Shown here piece by piece: positions 2,445-18,259 of a stretch of DNA of 35,621 nt. Made by a program: the position numbers and the translations under genes. The notes below the pieces were generated by a model. The model was not told the origin of the DNA and ran no database searches. It saw only the letters and a list, made by a program, of their open reading frames with translations. The stretch is from Methanolinea sp. (GTDB taxonomy: Archaea > Halobacteriota > Methanomicrobia > Methanomicrobiales > Methanospirillaceae), in NCBI GenBank assembly GCA_018263335.1, contig JADFCY010000019.1, positions 1 through 35,621 on the forward strand. The letters are read 5' to 3'. Position 1 is the stretch's first letter. Each line of letters opens with the position of its first letter.

Positions 2445-4013
2445 TCAGGACTCACAAAATATCCTGTGATACAGGTCTTTTCCAAAACTTGTCTGGAGCG
2501 GTTCGCCCTCTTTTATTTTGAACGTGCGTTCACCATCCGGCTTTCGTTCAGCCCTGAGAAAAGAGGCATTGCCCATGTTTCTCTCAAAGAGGCCCCGTGA
2601 AAATTCATGGAGGTGAGTGACGAAGATGATTTTCACCCGTTTTTTCAGGAGTGCGCACACGATCTGCCTTGAGATCTCTGAACCTTCCCGTTCGTTCGTC
2701 GCCGCGAACGATTCGTTGAACAACACCATGCTGTCCGGGCTGAGATGATCAATGATCTCACTCATCCTCGTGAGTTCTTCATCCAGTTTGCCGCTTCTCA
2801 TCTCGTGGTCCTCTTCACGCCTGAAGTGGGTGAAGACCCCGCGACAGACATCTGCAGAGAATGACTCGGCCGGGACACACGAACCGCACTGCATCAGCAG
2901 TTGCGCCAGCCCGACACTCCGGAGAAACGTTGATTTCCCCCCCCTGTTTGCCCCCGTGATGAGTACAAGGTCCTTCCCTTCCGCGTTCACATCGTTTCCG
3001 ATGATCGCCTGGTTCTTCTGGAGCGCCATGCACGCATCGTAGAGTCCTTTGGAGGTGAGAGTCCGGTTCCCGGGTTCACGGGGGACCGGGAAGCAGACTG
3101 GTTCCCCAAGACGCATCAGTTCCTCTCTCAGATGCACACACCCAAGATAAAATGCCAGTTCGATCTTCAACGAGGTGAAGAACCTGAAGATATGATCGGT
3201 CGCCTGATGGAGGATGCGGGAGACAGGGTTCAGGCTCTTTCCTCTCATCTCTGCCAGTGCCCGGAATCCGGTCGTATCCCGATCAGCGATGGTGAAGCTG
3301 TACTGCGCTGACGGGTCTATTGAAAGAACCCGGGCGATCCATGTCTGCGGTGGGATCTCCCGGCACCGCTGGAGGGTATAGTTTGTCCCCTTGTTTCCCT
3401 TCCCGAGTTCCGCGGTGATACAGGCGCCGGCCGGTAGCGATAACTCCCCGAGTATGGCGTTCAGTGAGACGATGTATTCATCGGTCAGTTCTCTTTTGAG
3501 CATGGCGAAGAACTCCCTGAACCCCTCTGATTCGAATGTCCCCCCATGGTCCTCTGCGACCTTCCGGAGCAACACGAGCTTTCCGATAAACAGCGTGAGC
3601 GCCCGTATGGAAGTGCCCCGGACCGAGTCTGCTGATTTGCCTGTATACCAGGTGAACTCCTTGAAATACCCCTCGATCGATTCATCGCAGATCCCGTAGA
3701 TCTCTCTTACGACCTTTGTATTCCTGATGCAGTCCCTGAGGATATCCTGGCGGTAGAGGATCGTGCCGGTATCCGGGACCGAAAGGAGCACCACATTCTT
3801 CGCGACTTCATAGAGATACCTGTCACCCTGTGCCATCGATTTGAACAGGATGTCCAGTTCCAGGTCCTGTGTGACCATCCGCAGGACGTGTGGGAGCAAT
3901 GCCCATTGCTCTTCATACTCACGGTCTCTCCACCTTGTCGGCTGGGGATATTTCGGGAGCATCCCCCACGCGGGACAAAAATCTCGGTTCCTGAAGAGGA
4001 GATGGGGTTTCAT
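2445..4013 (-). CDS. MutS-like ATPase, second gene of a pair
   Basis: This 522-residue protein carries the C-terminal ATPase (domain V) of the MutS family. Walker A is GANRGGKST (about residue 355), followed by the family signature FTHFRREED (about 394-402), a Walker B-like SMVLFNESF (about 430) and the switch motif THLHEF (about 466). In canonical MutS, Walker B ends in Asp-Glu; here it is Asn-Glu, which keeps the catalytic Glu. The N-terminal two thirds look like MutS core/lever helices. No mismatch-recognition domain (Phe-x-Glu) is evident, and the length is well below the 800 or more residues of MutS1. Its ATG overlaps the stop of the preceding MutS-like gene by four bases, so the two are probably co-translated and may form a heterodimer. 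The DNA substrate is unknown. Confidence 0.85.
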   Translation of the reverse strand: MKPHLLFRNRDFCPAWGMLPKYPQPTRWRDREYEEQWALLPHVLRMVTQDLELDILFKSMAQGDRYLYEVAKNVVLLSVPDTGTILYRQDILRDCIRNTKVVREIYGICDESIEGYFKEFTWYTGKSADSVRGTSIRALTLFIGKLVLLRKVAEDHGGTFESEGFREFFAMLKRELTDEYIVSLNAILGELSLPAGACITAELGKGNKGTNYTLQRCREIPPQTWIARVLSIDPSAQYSFTIADRDTTGFRALAEMRGKSLNPVSRILHQATDHIFRFFTSLKIELAFYLGCVHLREELMRLGEPVCFPVPREPGNRTLTSKGLYDACMALQKNQAIIGNDVNAEGKDLVLITGANRGGKSTFLRSVGLAQLLMQCGSCVPAESFSADVCRGVFTHFRREEDHEMRSGKLDEELTRMSEIIDHLSPDSMVLFNESFAATNEREGSEISRQIVCALLKKRVKIIFVTHLHEFSRGLFERNMGNASFLRAERKPDGERTFKIKEGEPLQTSFGKDLYHRIFCES

Positions 4014-5542
4014 GATGGAATCCGCTCCAGGATCGCCTCGTAAGTGACCCGTTTCTTTCTGGCAATCGCGATTGCATAGGAAAGTCCGTCCGCGGGTCTC
4101 CTCACCACCCTGTACGTGCGCACATCCGGGTTGTCAGGCGCCACCGTGCTGACCATGCTCACCGTCTTTTCGAGCATGGTCAGCTCGTCAAGGAAGGTGA
4201 CATAGATGCAGAGGAGGTCCAGTTGGATTGCCTGCTCAAGTACTTTTCTTCCGAGGTACAGGGCGTCCTGGACTGTCGTCGAGGTAAACATCTCGTTGAT
4301 GATGATGATACTCCTTGGAGTGCAGGTGGTGAATATCGAGTGGATCCTCAGGAGATCGTCCTCCAGTTTACTCCTCAGGTTTCCAAGGGACTCTTCCCGT
4401 TCGAAATGGGTAAATATCCTGTCAAAGAGGTAAAGCCGCGCGGTCCTGCCCGGCACCGGACACCCGAGGCCCGCGAGGAAATGCAGCTGCCCAAAGACCC
4501 GGGCAAATGTTGTTTTTCCCCCCTGGTTCGGACCGGTGATAACAAATATTCGTTCCCTGCCCTCGAGGTAAAAATCATTGGTGACGACGGGTATACCTTG
4601 AGGGGACAGTCTGATTGCAAGGGCAAGGTCGAACCCTTCTCGGCTTTCGACCTCTTTCTCCGTATCTGAGACTTCTGGGATGCAAAAAGGAAGGTTCTCA
4701 TTCTTTATCCTGGCAACCAGATCGAGGTACGCGAGATAAAAGTGGACCTCCCGATCGAAACGGGCCACGGTCTCATCCAGGTAATTGAGGTTCTTCTCAT
4801 GGAAGGCGGAGAGGTGTGAGAATACTTCGGGGTACTGGAGTGCGACCAGGTCGAGGACCTTCGCCTCCACATGGTTCATTTCAGGATATTCTGGAAATCT
4901 CTCCTGGAACGGCTGAACGGGATCCTGGAGAAACCCCTTAAAGGTGTGTTCAACCTCTCTGATATAGTCCTGGCTCGATTTGCTCTTTCTCACGGTTATC
5001 TTGTTTCCTTGAATATGCAGGCAGTAGGTGACGCCTGACAGTTCCGCATCGAGTTGTGCAATTTCTGCGACAAGCGAGGTAAACCCTGGGGAGTGTGAAT
5101 ACTCGTTCAGGAATTCACGCAACGCCTGGAAGCCACGCGAGGCAAGATCGAGATCTGCGAGGTCGTTTCCCAGGCGTTCAATTGTTTCGCAGTACACTGC
5201 CACTGCATCCAGGAACCAGCGTCTCTTCTGGGAGAAGTTATGGAGTTTTTTGGCCTGGGCAAGGTGTGTCCGCATCGTTTGCATCCCGAGAGAGAAAGAT
5301 TTGAGGGCTTCAAGAAGCCGGGTGTTGCCCAGGTCCCGGACTATCTCCTGGCGATAAGCAATGGCATCGCAACTCTTCAGCGATTCATAGAAAAACGGCT
5401 TCAGGTCGTACTCCTCATAGCCTGCGATCACCGCATCTACAACCTGATCCAGGTGTAAGTCCGAAAAAAAGGCCGGTTCCTTGAGGGCTTCACGGCTGAC
5501 GGCCATATCCGGATTTGCATACAGAATGCTGAAACGACTCAT
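4010..5542 (-). CDS. MutS-like ATPase, first gene of a pair
   Basis: This 510-residue MutS-family ATPase is the upstream partner of the gene at 2445-4013. Walker A is GPNQGGKTTFAR (about 343-354), then FTHFEREES (about 382), a Walker B-like SIIIINEMF (about 416, with Asn-Glu instead of Asp-Glu) and the switch region YVTFLDEL, where the usual His of the TH motif is Phe. The two proteins have the same layout but differ along their length, as subunits of a heterodimer would. The N-terminal MutS mismatch-binding and connector domains are not recognisable. I see no strong ribosome binding site before the ATG at 5542. One 45-nt repeat element lies about 290 bases upstream in the same orientation. 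A role in recombination or structured-DNA processing is possible, but the sequence does not decide it. Confidence 0.85.
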   Translation of the reverse strand: MSRFSILYANPDMAVSREALKEPAFFSDLHLDQVVDAVIAGYEEYDLKPFFYESLKSCDAIAYRQEIVRDLGNTRLLEALKSFSLGMQTMRTHLAQAKKLHNFSQKRRWFLDAVAVYCETIERLGNDLADLDLASRGFQALREFLNEYSHSPGFTSLVAEIAQLDAELSGVTYCLHIQGNKITVRKSKSSQDYIREVEHTFKGFLQDPVQPFQERFPEYPEMNHVEAKVLDLVALQYPEVFSHLSAFHEKNLNYLDETVARFDREVHFYLAYLDLVARIKNENLPFCIPEVSDTEKEVESREGFDLALAIRLSPQGIPVVTNDFYLEGRERIFVITGPNQGGKTTFARVFGQLHFLAGLGCPVPGRTARLYLFDRIFTHFEREESLGNLRSKLEDDLLRIHSIFTTCTPRSIIIINEMFTSTTVQDALYLGRKVLEQAIQLDLLCIYVTFLDELTMLEKTVSMVSTVAPDNPDVRTYRVVRRPADGLSYAIAIARKKRVTYEAILERIPS

Positions 5543-13288: not shown

Positions 13289-15283
13289 GTGAACACGGGG
13301 AGTGGGAGTGTCACGGAGAATACGGGGGACAGGGACTGGATGCCAGCCAAGAAGGAGATCATAGGAGAACTGGGAGAGGAGGGGTTGATCCTCCCGACGC
13401 TCGTGAACAATGCATTAGCCGCAAACGACCGGATCAAGTATCTCTTCACCCTTCTCCAGGCAGCGCAGTCCAGGGCCGAGAACCCGCATGGAGATTTCTC
13501 CAGCCTGCGGGTGGAGAGGGAGGCTGCGGGAATAGAGGAGACTGCCTACGACAGGGTGGTGGCCGGATCGGAGTCAGCAGGAAAGGGAGTCATCCGCATC
13601 CCCCACGCAGCGCAGATCTTCGGAGAGGTGAGGTCAAACCTGATGGAGATGGCGACACCCCTTCTCTCACGCGATGATGGCGATGCCAGTGCGCTCAGAG
13701 AACGTCTGCAGGCGCTGGAAAAGCGCATTCCCACCGGCGAAGGGGATCTCGTTGAGAAGGCAGCAATCGATGCGATCACCGCGGGCCAGAGGGGAGAGGG
13801 CGACAGCATCCACCTCCTGGTGATGGACATGCACCGTGCCCTGAACAGGCTCCAGGGGGATCTCGCGAGCGAGATGGTCGACGGGGCCATGACCTACCTC
13901 CTTGAAGAGGGGGACCAGGAGATCGTCCGTGCCTTCATGTCCGGGGTCCATCGCACGGCGCCCCTGAAGTTCGACCACCCGGGCCTTGGGACCACCGCAA
14001 CGAGGAACGGACCAAGGCTGATACTCCAGAACGATATCGGGATGACCGATGCCCACGTCCTGGTGATCAACATCGAGGGCCTGATGGTGACCATCATCTA
14101 CACCGACATCCACATGCCGAGGCTCCAGTTCTTCCAGAGCCTCTTTGAAGGCCAGGGTGTCACCTGGGGCGACACGCTCTCAAAGAAGGGAGCGGAGACC
14201 TTCGAGAAGAAGATCTACCACCTCTCAACCGGGACGTATACCGCGTCCGGGAATGACGACCTGGCGAGGTTCCTCTCGTTCGCAGGGTCGCGCCTGGTCT
14301 TTTTGATCGACTGGAACCGCGCCCGAAAGAGGCTCCGGAACTTCCTCCTCACCAAGGACGCGGTCGGTGTCCTGAAATGGGCGGCGGACAACGATGTCGG
14401 GCACATGGGCTTCCTGCTCCTCGGGGGAGAAAAGATGATCTACGACGCGATGGAGATGTCCTCCCGGGTCCCCATGAGATACGGGGAACCCCTCCACCAG
14501 ATCCTCGGACGCGAGAAGAGCATCGAGTATTTCCAGTGGGTGCTCCGTGTCTCTGCAACAGGGCTCCTTGCACACAAGTCGCGCCTCCTGATCCAGGACG
14601 AGATAAAGGCAGAGCTGCTCCGCTACTTCCGGTCGGCGCACGAGGGCTTAATGGAGATCTGCGAGGAGCATGCCACCCTCACCATCAGCGTGGCGACAGT
14701 GGTGAGGGAGGCGCTGCAGCATATCCAGATGGGGGGAGACGTCTCGTTCATTGGGAGGAGCGCACGGCGGGCGAAGAGGTGGGAGAGCGAGGCGGACCTT
14801 GCGGTTACCTCCGTGCGGACCCTCTCGCGGAGGATAGAGAACGCCGGGTTCTACTCCCAGCTCATCTTCACGGCCGACGACGCGCTTGATTTTCTCGAGG
14901 AGGCATCCTTCTACGTGACCCTCATCCCGGCCGTCACCTCTTCGAGGAAGATCAACCAGTCACTCGTCGAGATGGCGGAACTCGCGGAGCGGAGCACCCA
15001 GGAGTTCTTAAAAGCCCTGATCGCCTCGCAGCATGTCTACAAGGGGTACAGCAGGGACGATATGCAGGAGTTCCTCCAGGCGATAGACCATGTGCTCTCC
15101 CTCGAACGACAGGCTGACGACGCCCTCCGCCTCGCACAGAAGACCATCCTTGTCGAGTCGCGGGACTGGAAGGAGATGCAGGTGTACAGCGACCTGGCCC
15201 GGACCATCGAGGAGTCTACGAACTCCCTGATGAAGGCTGCGTTCCTCATCCGGGACGACATCATGGAGAGGATGAACCGCTGA
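13289..15283 (+). CDS. Large protein with PhoU/DUF47-like C-terminus
   Basis: The 664-residue product has no signal peptide or membrane segment. Residues 1-440 are unfamiliar: mostly helical, with beta-rich stretches near the middle (DAHVLVINIEGLMVTIIYTD, LVFLIDWNRARKRLRNF). The last 200 residues are long amphipathic helices with acidic clusters (SEADLAVTSVRTLSRRIENAG, DDALDFLEEASFYVTLIP), which resemble the PhoU/DUF47 metal-binding helical bundle. Translation begins at GTG 13289 or more likely ATG 13340 (MPAKKEIIGELGEEG). It is separated by only 12 bases from the ATG of a half-length pyruvate phosphate dikinase, so the two are an operon and may act together in phosphate or phosphoryl transfer. 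That role is inferred from context only. Confidence 0.7.
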   Translation: MNTGSGSVTENTGDRDWMPAKKEIIGELGEEGLILPTLVNNALAANDRIKYLFTLLQAAQSRAENPHGDFSSLRVEREAAGIEETAYDRVVAGSESAGKGVIRIPHAAQIFGEVRSNLMEMATPLLSRDDGDASALRERLQALEKRIPTGEGDLVEKAAIDAITAGQRGEGDSIHLLVMDMHRALNRLQGDLASEMVDGAMTYLLEEGDQEIVRAFMSGVHRTAPLKFDHPGLGTTATRNGPRLILQNDIGMTDAHVLVINIEGLMVTIIYTDIHMPRLQFFQSLFEGQGVTWGDTLSKKGAETFEKKIYHLSTGTYTASGNDDLARFLSFAGSRLVFLIDWNRARKRLRNFLLTKDAVGVLKWAADNDVGHMGFLLLGGEKMIYDAMEMSSRVPMRYGEPLHQILGREKSIEYFQWVLRVSATGLLAHKSRLLIQDEIKAELLRYFRSAHEGLMEICEEHATLTISVATVVREALQHIQMGGDVSFIGRSARRAKRWESEADLAVTSVRTLSRRIENAGFYSQLIFTADDALDFLEEASFYVTLIPAVTSSRKINQSLVEMAELAERSTQEFLKALIASQHVYKGYSRDDMQEFLQAIDHVLSLERQADDALRLAQKTILVESRDWKEMQVYSDLARTIEESTNSLMKAAFLIRDDIMERMNR

Positions 15284-15295
15284 GAGGTGGTGTGC

Positions 15296-16903
15296 ATGGC
15301 CGCAGCAAAACCCTCTCCCCGCATGGCGTCGTTCGGGTGTGGCCTTGACGAGAGCCTCCCGGCCGAGGAGTTCGGCAACAAGGCTGCAAGCCTTGCCGCC
15401 ATCGCATCCCTCGGAGTCAGGGTGCCCCCGGGGTTCTGCCTCGGGGTGACCCTCTGTGAGGAGTACTTCGCTTCCGGGCGGCGCCTCCCTCCCGACCTCC
15501 CTGCCCTCCTCTCCACCGGAATCTCGCGCCTGGAGAAGACGACGGGCCTCTCGTTTGGCAGCAGCAGGAGACCGCTTCTCGTCTCTGTCCGATCCGGAGC
15601 CCCGGTATCCATGCCGGGGGTGATGGAGACCATCCTGAACATCGGGCTCTCACGGGAGACGGTCCGCGGCCTCATCTCCCTCTCCGGCAACCCGAAATTC
15701 GCGTGGGACTCGTACCGGAGGCTCATCCAGAACTTCGGGCAGGTGGTGTGCCGCCAACCACCTGCGCTCTACCAGGCGGCGCTTCGCGAGGCGATAGAGC
15801 GGGCGGGAGTCGAGGACGAGGTCGAACTGGACGCCCGATCACTCCGTGACCTTGCCGGCGAGTACGAGCGGATTTTTGCCCAGAACGGGGGCGAGAAGTT
15901 CCCTCCCGGTGCCATGCGGCAGCTGGAGCAGGCGGCCGAGGCGGTCATCCTCTCGTGGGAGAGTCCCCGTGCCGACGCGTTCCGGCGGCTCAACCTCATC
16001 AGGGAGGCGCGGGGGACCGCAGTCGCGGTACAGGCGATGGTGTTTGGCAACATGGGCTCCCGTTCGGGGGCGGGTGTTGCCTTCACGAGGAACCCCTGGA
16101 AGGGGAATAACGAGCTGTTGGTGGACTTCAAGTTCGGGGCACAGGGGGAGGACGTGGTCTCTGGAGACCAGTCGGTGAGCACCCAGCAGGAGTTCCAGGC
16201 GGCGCTCCCAGAGACATTCGCCGAGCTTTGCGAGACTGCAAAAAGGCTGGAATCGCATTTTCGGGACATGCAGGACCTCGAGTTCACGGTCCAGAACGGC
16301 GAACTCTACATCCTCCAGACGAGGAGCGGAAAACGCTCCCCCTATGCGGCGTTGAAGATCGCAGTCGATCTCTGCCAGGAGGGGGTCATCTCACCCTCAG
16401 ACGCCATATGGATGTTACGGGACGTGGACCTCGATGCCGTCTCGGTCCAGCGTGTCAGGACCCGGGATCACCCCCTCGCAGTGGGAATCCCCGCGTCGGG
16501 CGGGGTTGCATCGGGGGAGATCGCGTTCAACTGCGCGAGCGCCGAAGCGATGGAAGCGGAGGGGAGGCGCGTGATCCTGGTCAGGGAGACCCCCTCTCCC
16601 GATGACATCCCGGGGATCAGGGCGGCAATTGCCCTCCTCACTGCCAGGGGTGCACGGACGGCACATGCGGCGGTGGTGGCTAGGCAGATGGGAAGGGTCT
16701 GCGTGGTCGGGTGCGAGAACCTGGTCATCGACGAAGCAAGGCGGAGGTGCCGTATCAGCGGCCAGGAGCTGCGGGAAGGTGCCACCATCACAGTCGACGG
16801 GAACTCGGGGAAGGTATTCCTCGGTGAGGTAGAGCACTCGTCTGAGCGGCCCACAGCACTCATCGCGATGGTGAGGGAGTGGGAACAGTCCCTGCACCCG
16901 TGA
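15296..16903 (+). CDS. Half-length pyruvate phosphate dikinase-like protein (ATP and phospho-His domains only)
   Basis: This 535-residue protein matches the first two domains of pyruvate phosphate dikinase. The ATP-grasp domain shows FGNKAASLAAIASLGVRVPPGF, SVRSGAPVSMPGVMETILN, AMVFGNMGSRSGAGVAFTRNP, GAQGEDVVSG and MQDLEFTVQNGELYILQTRSGKR. The swivelling domain carries the phospho-accepting His in LTARGARTAHAAVVARQMG (about residue 455). The C-terminal TIM barrel (about 340 residues) that binds PEP or pyruvate is missing; the gene ends cleanly with a stop and no remnant follows. ATP-dependent His phosphorylation is possible, but the phosphate acceptor must be something else. I start at ATG 15296, five bases after GAGGTGG, rather than GTG 15287. 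It follows the PhoU-like protein by 12 bases. Confidence 0.85.
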   Translation: MAAAKPSPRMASFGCGLDESLPAEEFGNKAASLAAIASLGVRVPPGFCLGVTLCEEYFASGRRLPPDLPALLSTGISRLEKTTGLSFGSSRRPLLVSVRSGAPVSMPGVMETILNIGLSRETVRGLISLSGNPKFAWDSYRRLIQNFGQVVCRQPPALYQAALREAIERAGVEDEVELDARSLRDLAGEYERIFAQNGGEKFPPGAMRQLEQAAEAVILSWESPRADAFRRLNLIREARGTAVAVQAMVFGNMGSRSGAGVAFTRNPWKGNNELLVDFKFGAQGEDVVSGDQSVSTQQEFQAALPETFAELCETAKRLESHFRDMQDLEFTVQNGELYILQTRSGKRSPYAALKIAVDLCQEGVISPSDAIWMLRDVDLDAVSVQRVRTRDHPLAVGIPASGGVASGEIAFNCASAEAMEAEGRRVILVRETPSPDDIPGIRAAIALLTARGARTAHAAVVARQMGRVCVVGCENLVIDEARRRCRISGQELREGATITVDGNSGKVFLGEVEHSSERPTALIAMVREWEQSLHP

Positions 16904-16924: not shown

Positions 16925-18259
16925 TCAGGACCGGTCTCTCTGCTCGCGGTGAATCCTTGACGAGGCGTACTTCATCAGCGGATACACGCCGTCGGTCATC
17001 GGGTGGACCTCCATGAACCGGTCGAAGTCGTACACGGTGACCCCAAGGCGCATCAGGAAGGAGTGGTAGGCGGCGAGTATCCCTGCAGCGGGCCCTGCAG
17101 TATATACTCCGCCAACCTTTCCCGACTCCTTCGAGACGAGGATGCCTGCCATTCCCGTGTGCCCATGCAGCACCGACCAGAAAGTCCCCGGGCCGGCAGG
17201 GCCAGGGCTCCCGAACGCCACCTCGTCGCCGCTCGCGTCACCTTCGACGAACGCGTACTCCGACGCGAGGTTCATGGACTGGGGGATGGGCATGCAGTCC
17301 GGGGGAGGGTCCCGGCCAAGAATGGAGGCTGCGGCGACTGCGCCCTCGTGCCGTGCGACAGGGGTGAGGCAGCGGGAACCGGTGACGTCGCCGCAGGCAT
17401 ACACGTCGGGGTTGCTGGTGGCCATCGAACGGTCAACGATGATACGCCCGTCCTGCCCCTTCCCGATCCCGGCAATCATGGAGGAGTTTGGGACAAGCCC
17501 CGTGGCGACAAAGACCCCATCGCAGGGGAGGACAGACTTTTCCTCTCCGCTCGTGAGATGCGCATGGGTGACCACGTCGTCTCCCTCAAGCCCGTTCACC
17601 GTGCATCCCTCGCGTATTGTCACCCCTTCGAGGTCCCTTGCCGCGAGGTCCCGCAGTTTCGGATGCATTCCTTTTAGAAAGGTACTCCGGGCGGCCAGGG
17701 TGACATCAGCGCCGAATTGCCTGAAGATGAACGCAAACTCCGCTGCCATGATCCCTCCGCCGATGATCAGGAGGTGCTCCGGGACTATTTGCATGGTGAA
17801 AAGGGTGTGGGGAGTGTATACCCCGCCGAGCCGGATCCCGGGAATGTCCGGGATGCGGGGGAGCGACCCGGTGGCGATGATGATCTTATCAGTCTCAACG
17901 GGCTCCCCGTCCACAAACAGGGAACTTCCGTCCACCCTGCCCGTCGCTCCCTGCCGGATCTGGACCCCGCAGCCCCTCGTCTCGGCATCGAGCACCGAGG
18001 CGATCTTGGCCTGGACCTCTCTCATCCCAAAGAGAGTCCGGGAAAACGAGATCTCGGGGACATGGTCCAGGATTCCAAGTGAATGGAGGGTCCGGGAAAA
18101 AAAGAGGTGCCTGGCGATATCGTTCAGGGCGCAGACTGCCATGCAGCCGTGGTGGAGGCACTGGCCCCCGAGCCCACCCTTCTCGATGAGGACGACCTCC
18201 TTTCCCGCGAGGCCAAGCTGCATCGCCGCGATACGGCCCGCAGGCCCTCCCCCGAGCAC
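16925..18259 (-). CDS. FAD-dependent pyridine nucleotide-disulfide oxidoreductase (dihydrolipoamide dehydrogenase-like)
   Basis: The 444-residue flavoenzyme has the class I disulfide reductase layout. The FAD dinucleotide fold is GGGPAGRIAAM at the very start; the redox-active pair is CLHHGC (C-x4-C, about residues 34-39); then IIATGSLPRIP, the NAD(P) fold LLIIGGGIMAAEFA (about 162), the second FAD motif PDVYACGDVTG (about 284), and a C-terminal dimerisation domain with a His-Pro (EVHPMTDGVYPLM), where lipoamide dehydrogenases have HPTxxE. The changed tail suggests a substrate other than lipoamide. The GTG at 18259 leaves almost no residues before the FAD motif, so an upstream non-ATG start is possible. 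It lies 20 bases after the gene at 18280-19251 and probably shares its transcript. Confidence 0.85.
   Translation of the reverse strand: MLGGGPAGRIAAMQLGLAGKEVVLIEKGGLGGQCLHHGCMAVCALNDIARHLFFSRTLHSLGILDHVPEISFSRTLFGMREVQAKIASVLDAETRGCGVQIRQGATGRVDGSSLFVDGEPVETDKIIIATGSLPRIPDIPGIRLGGVYTPHTLFTMQIVPEHLLIIGGGIMAAEFAFIFRQFGADVTLAARSTFLKGMHPKLRDLAARDLEGVTIREGCTVNGLEGDDVVTHAHLTSGEEKSVLPCDGVFVATGLVPNSSMIAGIGKGQDGRIIVDRSMATSNPDVYACGDVTGSRCLTPVARHEGAVAAASILGRDPPPDCMPIPQSMNLASEYAFVEGDASGDEVAFGSPGPAGPGTFWSVLHGHTGMAGILVSKESGKVGGVYTAGPAAGILAAYHSFLMRLGVTVYDFDRFMEVHPMTDGVYPLMKYASSRIHREQRDRS

Follow-up and report, generated by a model that had tools for sequence, protein, structure and literature searches.

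A half-length pyruvate, phosphate dikinase and its constant PhoU-like partner in a methanogen genome: probably a phosphate- or polyphosphate-handling phosphotransfer system

A 35,621-nucleotide stretch of DNA from Methanolinea sp. (assembly GCA_018263335.1, contig JADFCY010000019.1; hereafter the window), belonging to a 2.03 Mb genome that is 99% complete, carries two genes arranged head to tail in a common reading frame. We call them P, for the partner protein, and D, for a half-length version of pyruvate, phosphate dikinase (PPDK), and propose that together they are probably an unrecognised phosphotransfer system that handles phosphate or polyphosphate. The genes and their parts are as follows:

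13289 to 15283, plus strand: P, 664 residues from GTG 13289; likely true start ATG 13340 (647 residues)
13340 to 14578, plus strand: N-terminal region of P (~residues 18–430), matching no known family or fold
14582 to 15280, plus strand: C-terminal PhoU/DUF47-like helical bundle of P (~residues 432–664)
15287 to 16903, plus strand: D, 538 residues from GTG 15287; likely start ATG 15296
15368 to 16411, plus strand: ATP-grasp (PPDK_N) domain of D (residues 28–375)
16469 to 16831, plus strand: phospho-His (PEP-utilizers mobile) domain of D (residues 395–515)
16664 to 16666, plus strand: codon of the catalytic His460 of D (TAHAAVVAR), a His in 41 of 41 P-linked D proteins

The later start of P is probably the true one because homologues begin there, at MPAKK (residue 18), and residues 1–18 are disordered in the AlphaFold2 (AF2) model. 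In D, a Shine-Dalgarno-like GAGGTGG precedes ATG 15296; the 12-base gap between the genes given in a preliminary description of this locus holds from that ATG, but from the upstream GTG the distance is 3 bases. A flavin oxidoreductase gene lies downstream of D on the opposite strand (16925–18259), and no further same-strand gene follows D.

Computation shows the pairing of P and D to be obligate. Among 150 genomes of the order, full P occurs in 21, and half-length D adjoins it in all 21; none of the 150 has a half-length D apart from P, the other strong matches being full-length PPDKs of 925–1008 residues, and one genome (G120) holds a full-length PPDK as well as P-D. A scan of GTDB with a P alignment gave 499 candidate loci (checked by tblastn), the best 80 of which were examined. 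At all 77 GTDB loci with downstream sequence D comes immediately after P, always in that order, so that, on the co-occurrence check proposed in the preliminary description, neither gene stands alone as a rule. The intergenic distance has a median of about 3 bp (54 measurable loci) and overlaps of 1–4 bp are frequent; gene calls are approximate in GC-rich contexts, and many of the surveyed genomes are metagenome-assembled genomes (MAGs). These loci are spread over Methanomicrobia, Thaumarchaeota, Beta-, Gamma-, Alpha- and Deltaproteobacteria, and Planctomycetes.

Two loci have an unusual P. Methanosarcina can decode TAG as pyrrolysine, and in Methanosarcina sp. bog_70 (L100, 4965–6911) P has an in-frame TAG at codon 390 with the rest intact and D next to it; this P may be translated by read-through instead of being a pseudogene. 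On a Methylocella tundrae plasmid (L219, NZ_LR536451.1) P is in several pieces, which reflects frameshift errors or decay, while the pair is intact in strain T4 (NZ_CP139088.1).

D terminates ~20 residues past its His domain, where a PPDK would start the phosphoenolpyruvate (PEP)/pyruvate barrel. It covers positions 17–514 of the 865 in the pyruvate, phosphate dikinase model TIGR01828 (E 1.7e-164), with a score of 549 bits that lies below the equivalog cut-off of 843 bits; against NF004531, a 534-residue half-length PPDK model that we take to be the mycobacterial type, it scores 430 bits, below the cut-off of 456 bits. Pfam matches PPDK_N and PEP-utilizers (the His domain) in D and not PEP-utilizers_C, while PPDK crystal structures match it across the first ~525 of ~874 residues, that is, the ATP-grasp and His domains only, and its identity to the N-terminal halves of PPDKs is about 40–46%. 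The C-terminus falls at a homologous position in 21 of 21 relatives aligned. Taken together, these matches uphold the earlier view of D as a dikinase with ATP-binding and phospho-His domains, no barrel and a clean end. A search of the whole genome with PF02896 for a detached barrel returned a sole match, inside PEP synthase; D thus cannot owe its missing half to a separate subunit of known type, a possibility that the preliminary description had named as grounds for refutation.

The ATP and His sites of D are intact. The residues that we take to be catalytic in C. symbiosum PPDK (K22, R92, D321, E323, Q335, R337 and H455) correspond, at an offset recorded as constant, to K32, R102, D330, E332, Q344, R346 and H460 of D. 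Among the 41 P-linked D proteins, R102, E332, Q344, R346, T458 and H460 are kept in all and K32 in 40, and the D330 position holds D or E. Shortly after the catalytic His, Q467 and V474 are specific to the D clade, and the Q467 position is G in all full-length PPDKs compared; a switch to another docking partner would be expected to leave such a change.

In a tree of 59 dikinases, which was built without Rv1127c and in which three half-length comparison rows are short fragments, the 41 P-linked D proteins form a single clade (SH-aLRT 100) with two branches, one of Methanomicrobia and one of bacteria plus Thaumarchaeota. Full-length PPDKs and half-length proteins of Rhodococcus, Streptomyces, Azospirillum/Skermanella and Novosphingobium fall outside it. 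Since D is one clade apart from the other dikinases, the barrel was probably lost once in the D line, with P retained ever since. Half-length D proteins without P were considered as members of the same family and discarded, as there are none in the order and the half-length proteins elsewhere fall in other clades.

Other half-length dikinases keep other company. On the Rhodococcus oxybenzonivorans plasmid pRB98 (L187, 3929–5668), a 579-residue half-length PPDK without P shares an operon with genes for a PEP-utilizing enzyme, an AMP-binding protein, a biotin carboxylase and a carboxyltransferase; it looks like a split dikinase that activates an aromatic or organic acid for carboxylation. On a Skermanella rosea plasmid (L217, 1020–4174), a hydroxypyruvate/tetronate operon contains a half-length PPDK that overlaps a gene for pyruvate kinase, and a related half-length protein occurs in Azospirillum oryzae (L216); this is a third half-length type, and its partner is again a different one.

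No Pfam or NCBIfam model matches the P protein of the window itself, but PF01865 (DUF47/PhoU_div) is matched by 45 of 75 members of the P family (best 2e-10). The AF2 model of P (pLDDT 84.7) places its C-terminus on the PhoU-like structure 3l39 in Foldseek with a template modelling (TM) score of 0.85 on the target and a root-mean-square deviation of 2.1. The motifs D530xxxD534 and E606xxxD610 are invariant in 75 P sequences and fit the E(D)xxxD motif named for PhoU proteins (PMC5686610), and the bundle is probably metal-binding. The 664-residue partner with a PhoU/DUF47-like end and an N-terminal two thirds of unrecognised type, as first described, is therefore confirmed.

The ~410 N-terminal residues of P extend beyond the ~210–230-residue PhoU bundle, and sequence and structure searches of the PDB with this N-domain gave only a weak YbjN-like match (E about 0.5). 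Across the 75 archaeal and bacterial P sequences 47 columns are invariant, and most of these lie within this region. Those in the region include the polar residues K50, R139, D172, H175, H182, H230, N248, D249, H256, D273, H275, R278, D341, N343, R346, K347 and H372, and conserved motifs are HPGLGTTATR, QNDIGxTDAH, YTDxH and IDWNRARK. Relatives of the N-domain that lack both D and the PhoU-like part (334–358 residues; L171, 3665–4669, and L172, 8236–9309) stand alone in four genomes of one Methanoregulaceae genus (G146, G204, G206 and G211). Because HPGLGTT and QNDIGxTDAH are lost in both of the D-less relatives that were aligned, the sequences suggest that these residues of P serve its work with D.

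PPK1, CHAD, CYTH or Ppx genes lie within 5 kb on either side of P-D in 14 of the 80 loci examined. The arrangements found around the pair are these:

L080/L173: PPK1>CHAD>Ppx>P>D
L175: PPK1>Ppx>P>D
L176: P>D<Ppx<CHAD<PPK1
L174: P-D with a divergent PPK1>CHAD>Ppx cluster
Methanolobus L205: CHAD>PPK1>Ppx, divergent from P-D
Methanoperedens L089: PPK1>CHAD>phosphoesterase-HD>P>D
Geobacteraceae L127: CHAD>Ppx>P>D
L082: P>D>Ppx
Thiobacillus-type L133 and L134: Ppx upstream of P-D
Methanosarcina: CHAD/CYTH near P-D
Thaumarchaeon L203: Ppx, CHAD, pstC-pstA-pstB-phoU and P-D within about 13 kb
Accumulibacter L197: PBP_like_2/PhoU/permease cluster (pst type) adjoining P-D

The order and strand of the polyphosphate genes vary from lineage to lineage, which suggests repeated association with P-D rather than one inherited block. 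A polyphosphate-type neighbour lies within 10 kb in 12 of 41 lineages (grouped by hand, approximately), where ~2 would be expected at an assumed chance rate of 5% per lineage (binomial 5e-7). PEP synthase, used as a control gene, is far from PPK1 in the complete genomes compared (G005, G031 and G097). Some archaeal polyphosphate clusters (L070, 8566–11943, and others) contain unusual combinations in which CHAD or a calcineurin-like phosphoesterase carries a fused domain III of Ppx-GppA (HD-type).

The same genes accompany P across genomes. In 135 near-complete genomes of the class (at least 90% complete; tallied by hand, with Fisher tests that do not correct for descent), PPK1 and CHAD are each present in 26 of 26 genomes with a strong P, compared with 61 and 55, respectively, of the 109 without P (Fisher 2e-6 and 2e-7). 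One member of the window's genus (G085, 95% complete) lacks P, PPK1 and CHAD all together, as does a genome of another genus (G140, 96% complete), several sisters of which (e.g. G005) hold all three. Outside the class, PPK1 is present in 25 of 30 P-positive genomes.

PPDK chemistry transfers phosphate from ATP onto a His, with release of AMP and pyrophosphate (PPi). The anatomy of D, with intact ATP and His sites and no barrel, points to a relay in which the phospho-His passes its phosphate to a recipient that is not pyruvate; P is the docking candidate because it is D's only constant partner, and, given the PPK1/CHAD/Ppx/pst-phoU context, our best guess is that the relay ends at polyphosphate or at a switch that controls it. 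That P and D are two subunits of one PPDK-derived phosphotransfer system, most likely with the cell's phosphate reserve as its target, is a reading to which we give an even chance. We infer a P-D complex, phosphorylation of His460, docking on P, the identity of the acceptor and the direction of the reaction. In such a scheme, D would run the ATP half-reaction (ATP + Pi -> AMP + PPi, Pi being orthophosphate, with phosphate left on His460) or its reverse, and its swivelling His domain would dock on P, which would stand in for the lost pyruvate/PEP barrel while the other substrate or target would sit in the conserved pocket of its N-domain and in the PhoU-like bundle. The target might be polyphosphate (ATP + Pi + polyP(n) <-> AMP + PPi + polyP(n+1), where polyP is polyphosphate) or a phosphate-homeostasis switch that controls the phosphate reserve. 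The relay in the preliminary description, from the His to the partner or another acceptor, keeps its non-pyruvate target, which follows from the anatomy; for P as the phospho-acceptor itself the wording must be more conditional, as P is the likely holder of the acceptor and not necessarily the acceptor.

Several observations weigh against this proposal. The window genome and about 29 of the 41 lineages, most bacterial ones included, have no polyphosphate gene within 8–10 kb of P-D; in the window genome PPK1, CHAD and Ppx lie together on another contig (C16). PPK1 and CHAD are common genes, kinship between genomes makes the counts non-independent, and P is missing from many genomes that have PPK1. 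Three Thaumarchaeota, a Geobacteraceae MAG and SKS1.bin116 hold P-D with PPK1 not detected, though the MAGs may be incomplete, and P-D is thus not simply serving PPK1; all five PPK1-less P-positive genomes outside the class have Ppx, the sole copy in SKS1.bin116 being directly upstream of P, and in a thaumarchaeon (L109) Ppx is on the P-D contig about 8 kb off. An AF2 read-through fusion of P and D (10 paired rows; predicted TM score 0.63, without an inter-chain error) belongs with these points and is neutral on a complex.

An ordinary PPDK, whether D borrows a barrel in trans or is a decaying fragment of one, is the account that we find hardest to credit. The identity of D to PPDK N-terminal halves speaks for it; the only barrel of the genome, however, belongs to PEP synthase, G120 has both a full-length PPDK and P-D, and decay would not preserve a uniform end point, a single clade, a conserved active site and a constant P. 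A regulatory relay is a more serious competitor, and possible, if still short of probable: D would be a VadK-like His kinase that phosphorylates or binds P, through which phosphate uptake or polyphosphate enzymes would be adjusted with no bulk conversion. VadK, a half-length PPDK that autophosphorylates and acts by binding enzymes, is a precedent (PMC13400623), PhoU proteins, whose fold forms the end of P, are regulators, and pst-phoU genes neighbour P-D in a thaumarchaeon and Accumulibacter. Yet about a dozen His, Asp, Asn, Arg and Lys positions of the P N-domain are invariant across archaea and bacteria and resemble an active site or ligand pocket more than a docking surface, and the P-linked D clade lies apart from the actinobacterial half-length proteins sampled. 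This large invariant pocket in P weighs somewhat towards an enzyme rather than a switch.

If P-D is an enzyme, its substrate could also be a small molecule, as in phenylphosphate synthase, with an organic acceptor (a phenol, acid or alcohol) held on P and the polyphosphate neighbourhood incidental. We regard this as unlikely. Phenol or aniline is known to be phosphorylated by split enzymes of the PEP synthase type (PMC7500099), some bacterial P-D pairs lie near acyl-CoA or aromatic-degradation genes (the Methylocella plasmid; PcaD/acyl-CoA dehydrogenase at L199), and most bacterial P-D loci lack a polyphosphate neighbour. Against these stand the absence of a consistent catabolic partner, since the 95 bacterial and thaumarchaeal P-D neighbours span 172 Pfam families with no dominant theme, the occurrence of P-D in methanogens of hydrogenotrophic type, which use few organic substrates, and the recurrence of the polyphosphate/pst context. 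The most specific form of the phosphate-reserve proposal is a tentative one, and doubtful as it stands: P-D would be a polyphosphate dikinase made from half a PPDK, a third kind of polyphosphate enzyme, and the P N-domain a putative new polyphosphate-binding catalytic fold. No Pfam PPK domain is found in P or D. Were P-D such a dikinase, archaea could recharge AMP directly from polyphosphate and PPi.

The proposal gives a concrete function to a two-gene unit of methanogens, Methanoperedens, Thaumarchaeota, Accumulibacter, Thiobacillus and other bacteria. If the link to phosphate or polyphosphate is true, an enzyme or switch is missing from current models of archaeal polyphosphate metabolism, and perhaps also from those of the polyphosphate-accumulating bacteria of wastewater treatment. 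D would be a second, independent case, after VadK, of a PPDK shedding its pyruvate half and changing its job, and the P N-domain is a large conserved domain without a Pfam family or confident PDB match. Elsewhere in the window, on the minus strand (2445–5542), two adjoining genes encode proteins of 522 and 510 residues, each with a MutS_V ATPase domain (PF00488) only.

Among known systems, PPDK (EC 2.7.9.1, TIGR01828) shares with D the ATP-grasp and phospho-His domains and all checked ATP-site and His residues; D differs in having no PEP/pyruvate barrel in cis or trans, an obligate P, and changes at Q467 and V474. In phenylphosphate and phenylphosphoamidate synthases (PpsAB and PasAB), one subunit carries the ATP part and another the His part. 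Their alpha subunit bears the His, and a non-pyruvate acceptor is served through split subunits (PMC7500099). P-D resembles them as a subunit-split, phospho-His system with a non-pyruvate acceptor, PpsAB and PasAB being derived from PEP synthase, but its ATP and His domains are both on D, and P shares no Pfam or NCBIfam family with dikinases.

A barrel-less PPDK acting as a phosphotransfer protein is not new. VadK (Rv1127c), a half-length PPDK of M. tuberculosis published in 2026, is reported to autophosphorylate on His422, to bind methylcitrate-cycle enzymes and to regulate that cycle (PMC13400623). It has the same two domains as D, has likewise lost the barrel, and has none encoded elsewhere in its genome; no PhoU-like partner is described for it, however, and the P-linked D clade lies apart from the actinobacterial half-length proteins sampled, Rv1127c itself not being among them. 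We found no paper on the P-D pair, or linking such a dikinase with PhoU, CHAD or polyphosphate, in agreement with the preliminary description's statement that the pair has no assigned function; that statement needs amending in that the context points to phosphate or polyphosphate and VadK provides a precedent, with different partners (PMC13400623). PPK1, Ppx/GppA and CHAD, frequent neighbours of P-D and probably part of the same process, are unrelated in sequence to either protein; in the text of a survey of polyphosphate metabolism in archaea, which lists PPK1, PPK2 and Ppx, the word ‘dikinase’ was not found (PMC6864096). The closest likeness of P is to PhoU/DUF47 (PhoU_div, PF01865), whose fold and E/DxxxD motifs recur in its C-terminal ~230 residues, but P adds to these an N-domain of ~410 residues, of unmatched fold, and a link to a dikinase.

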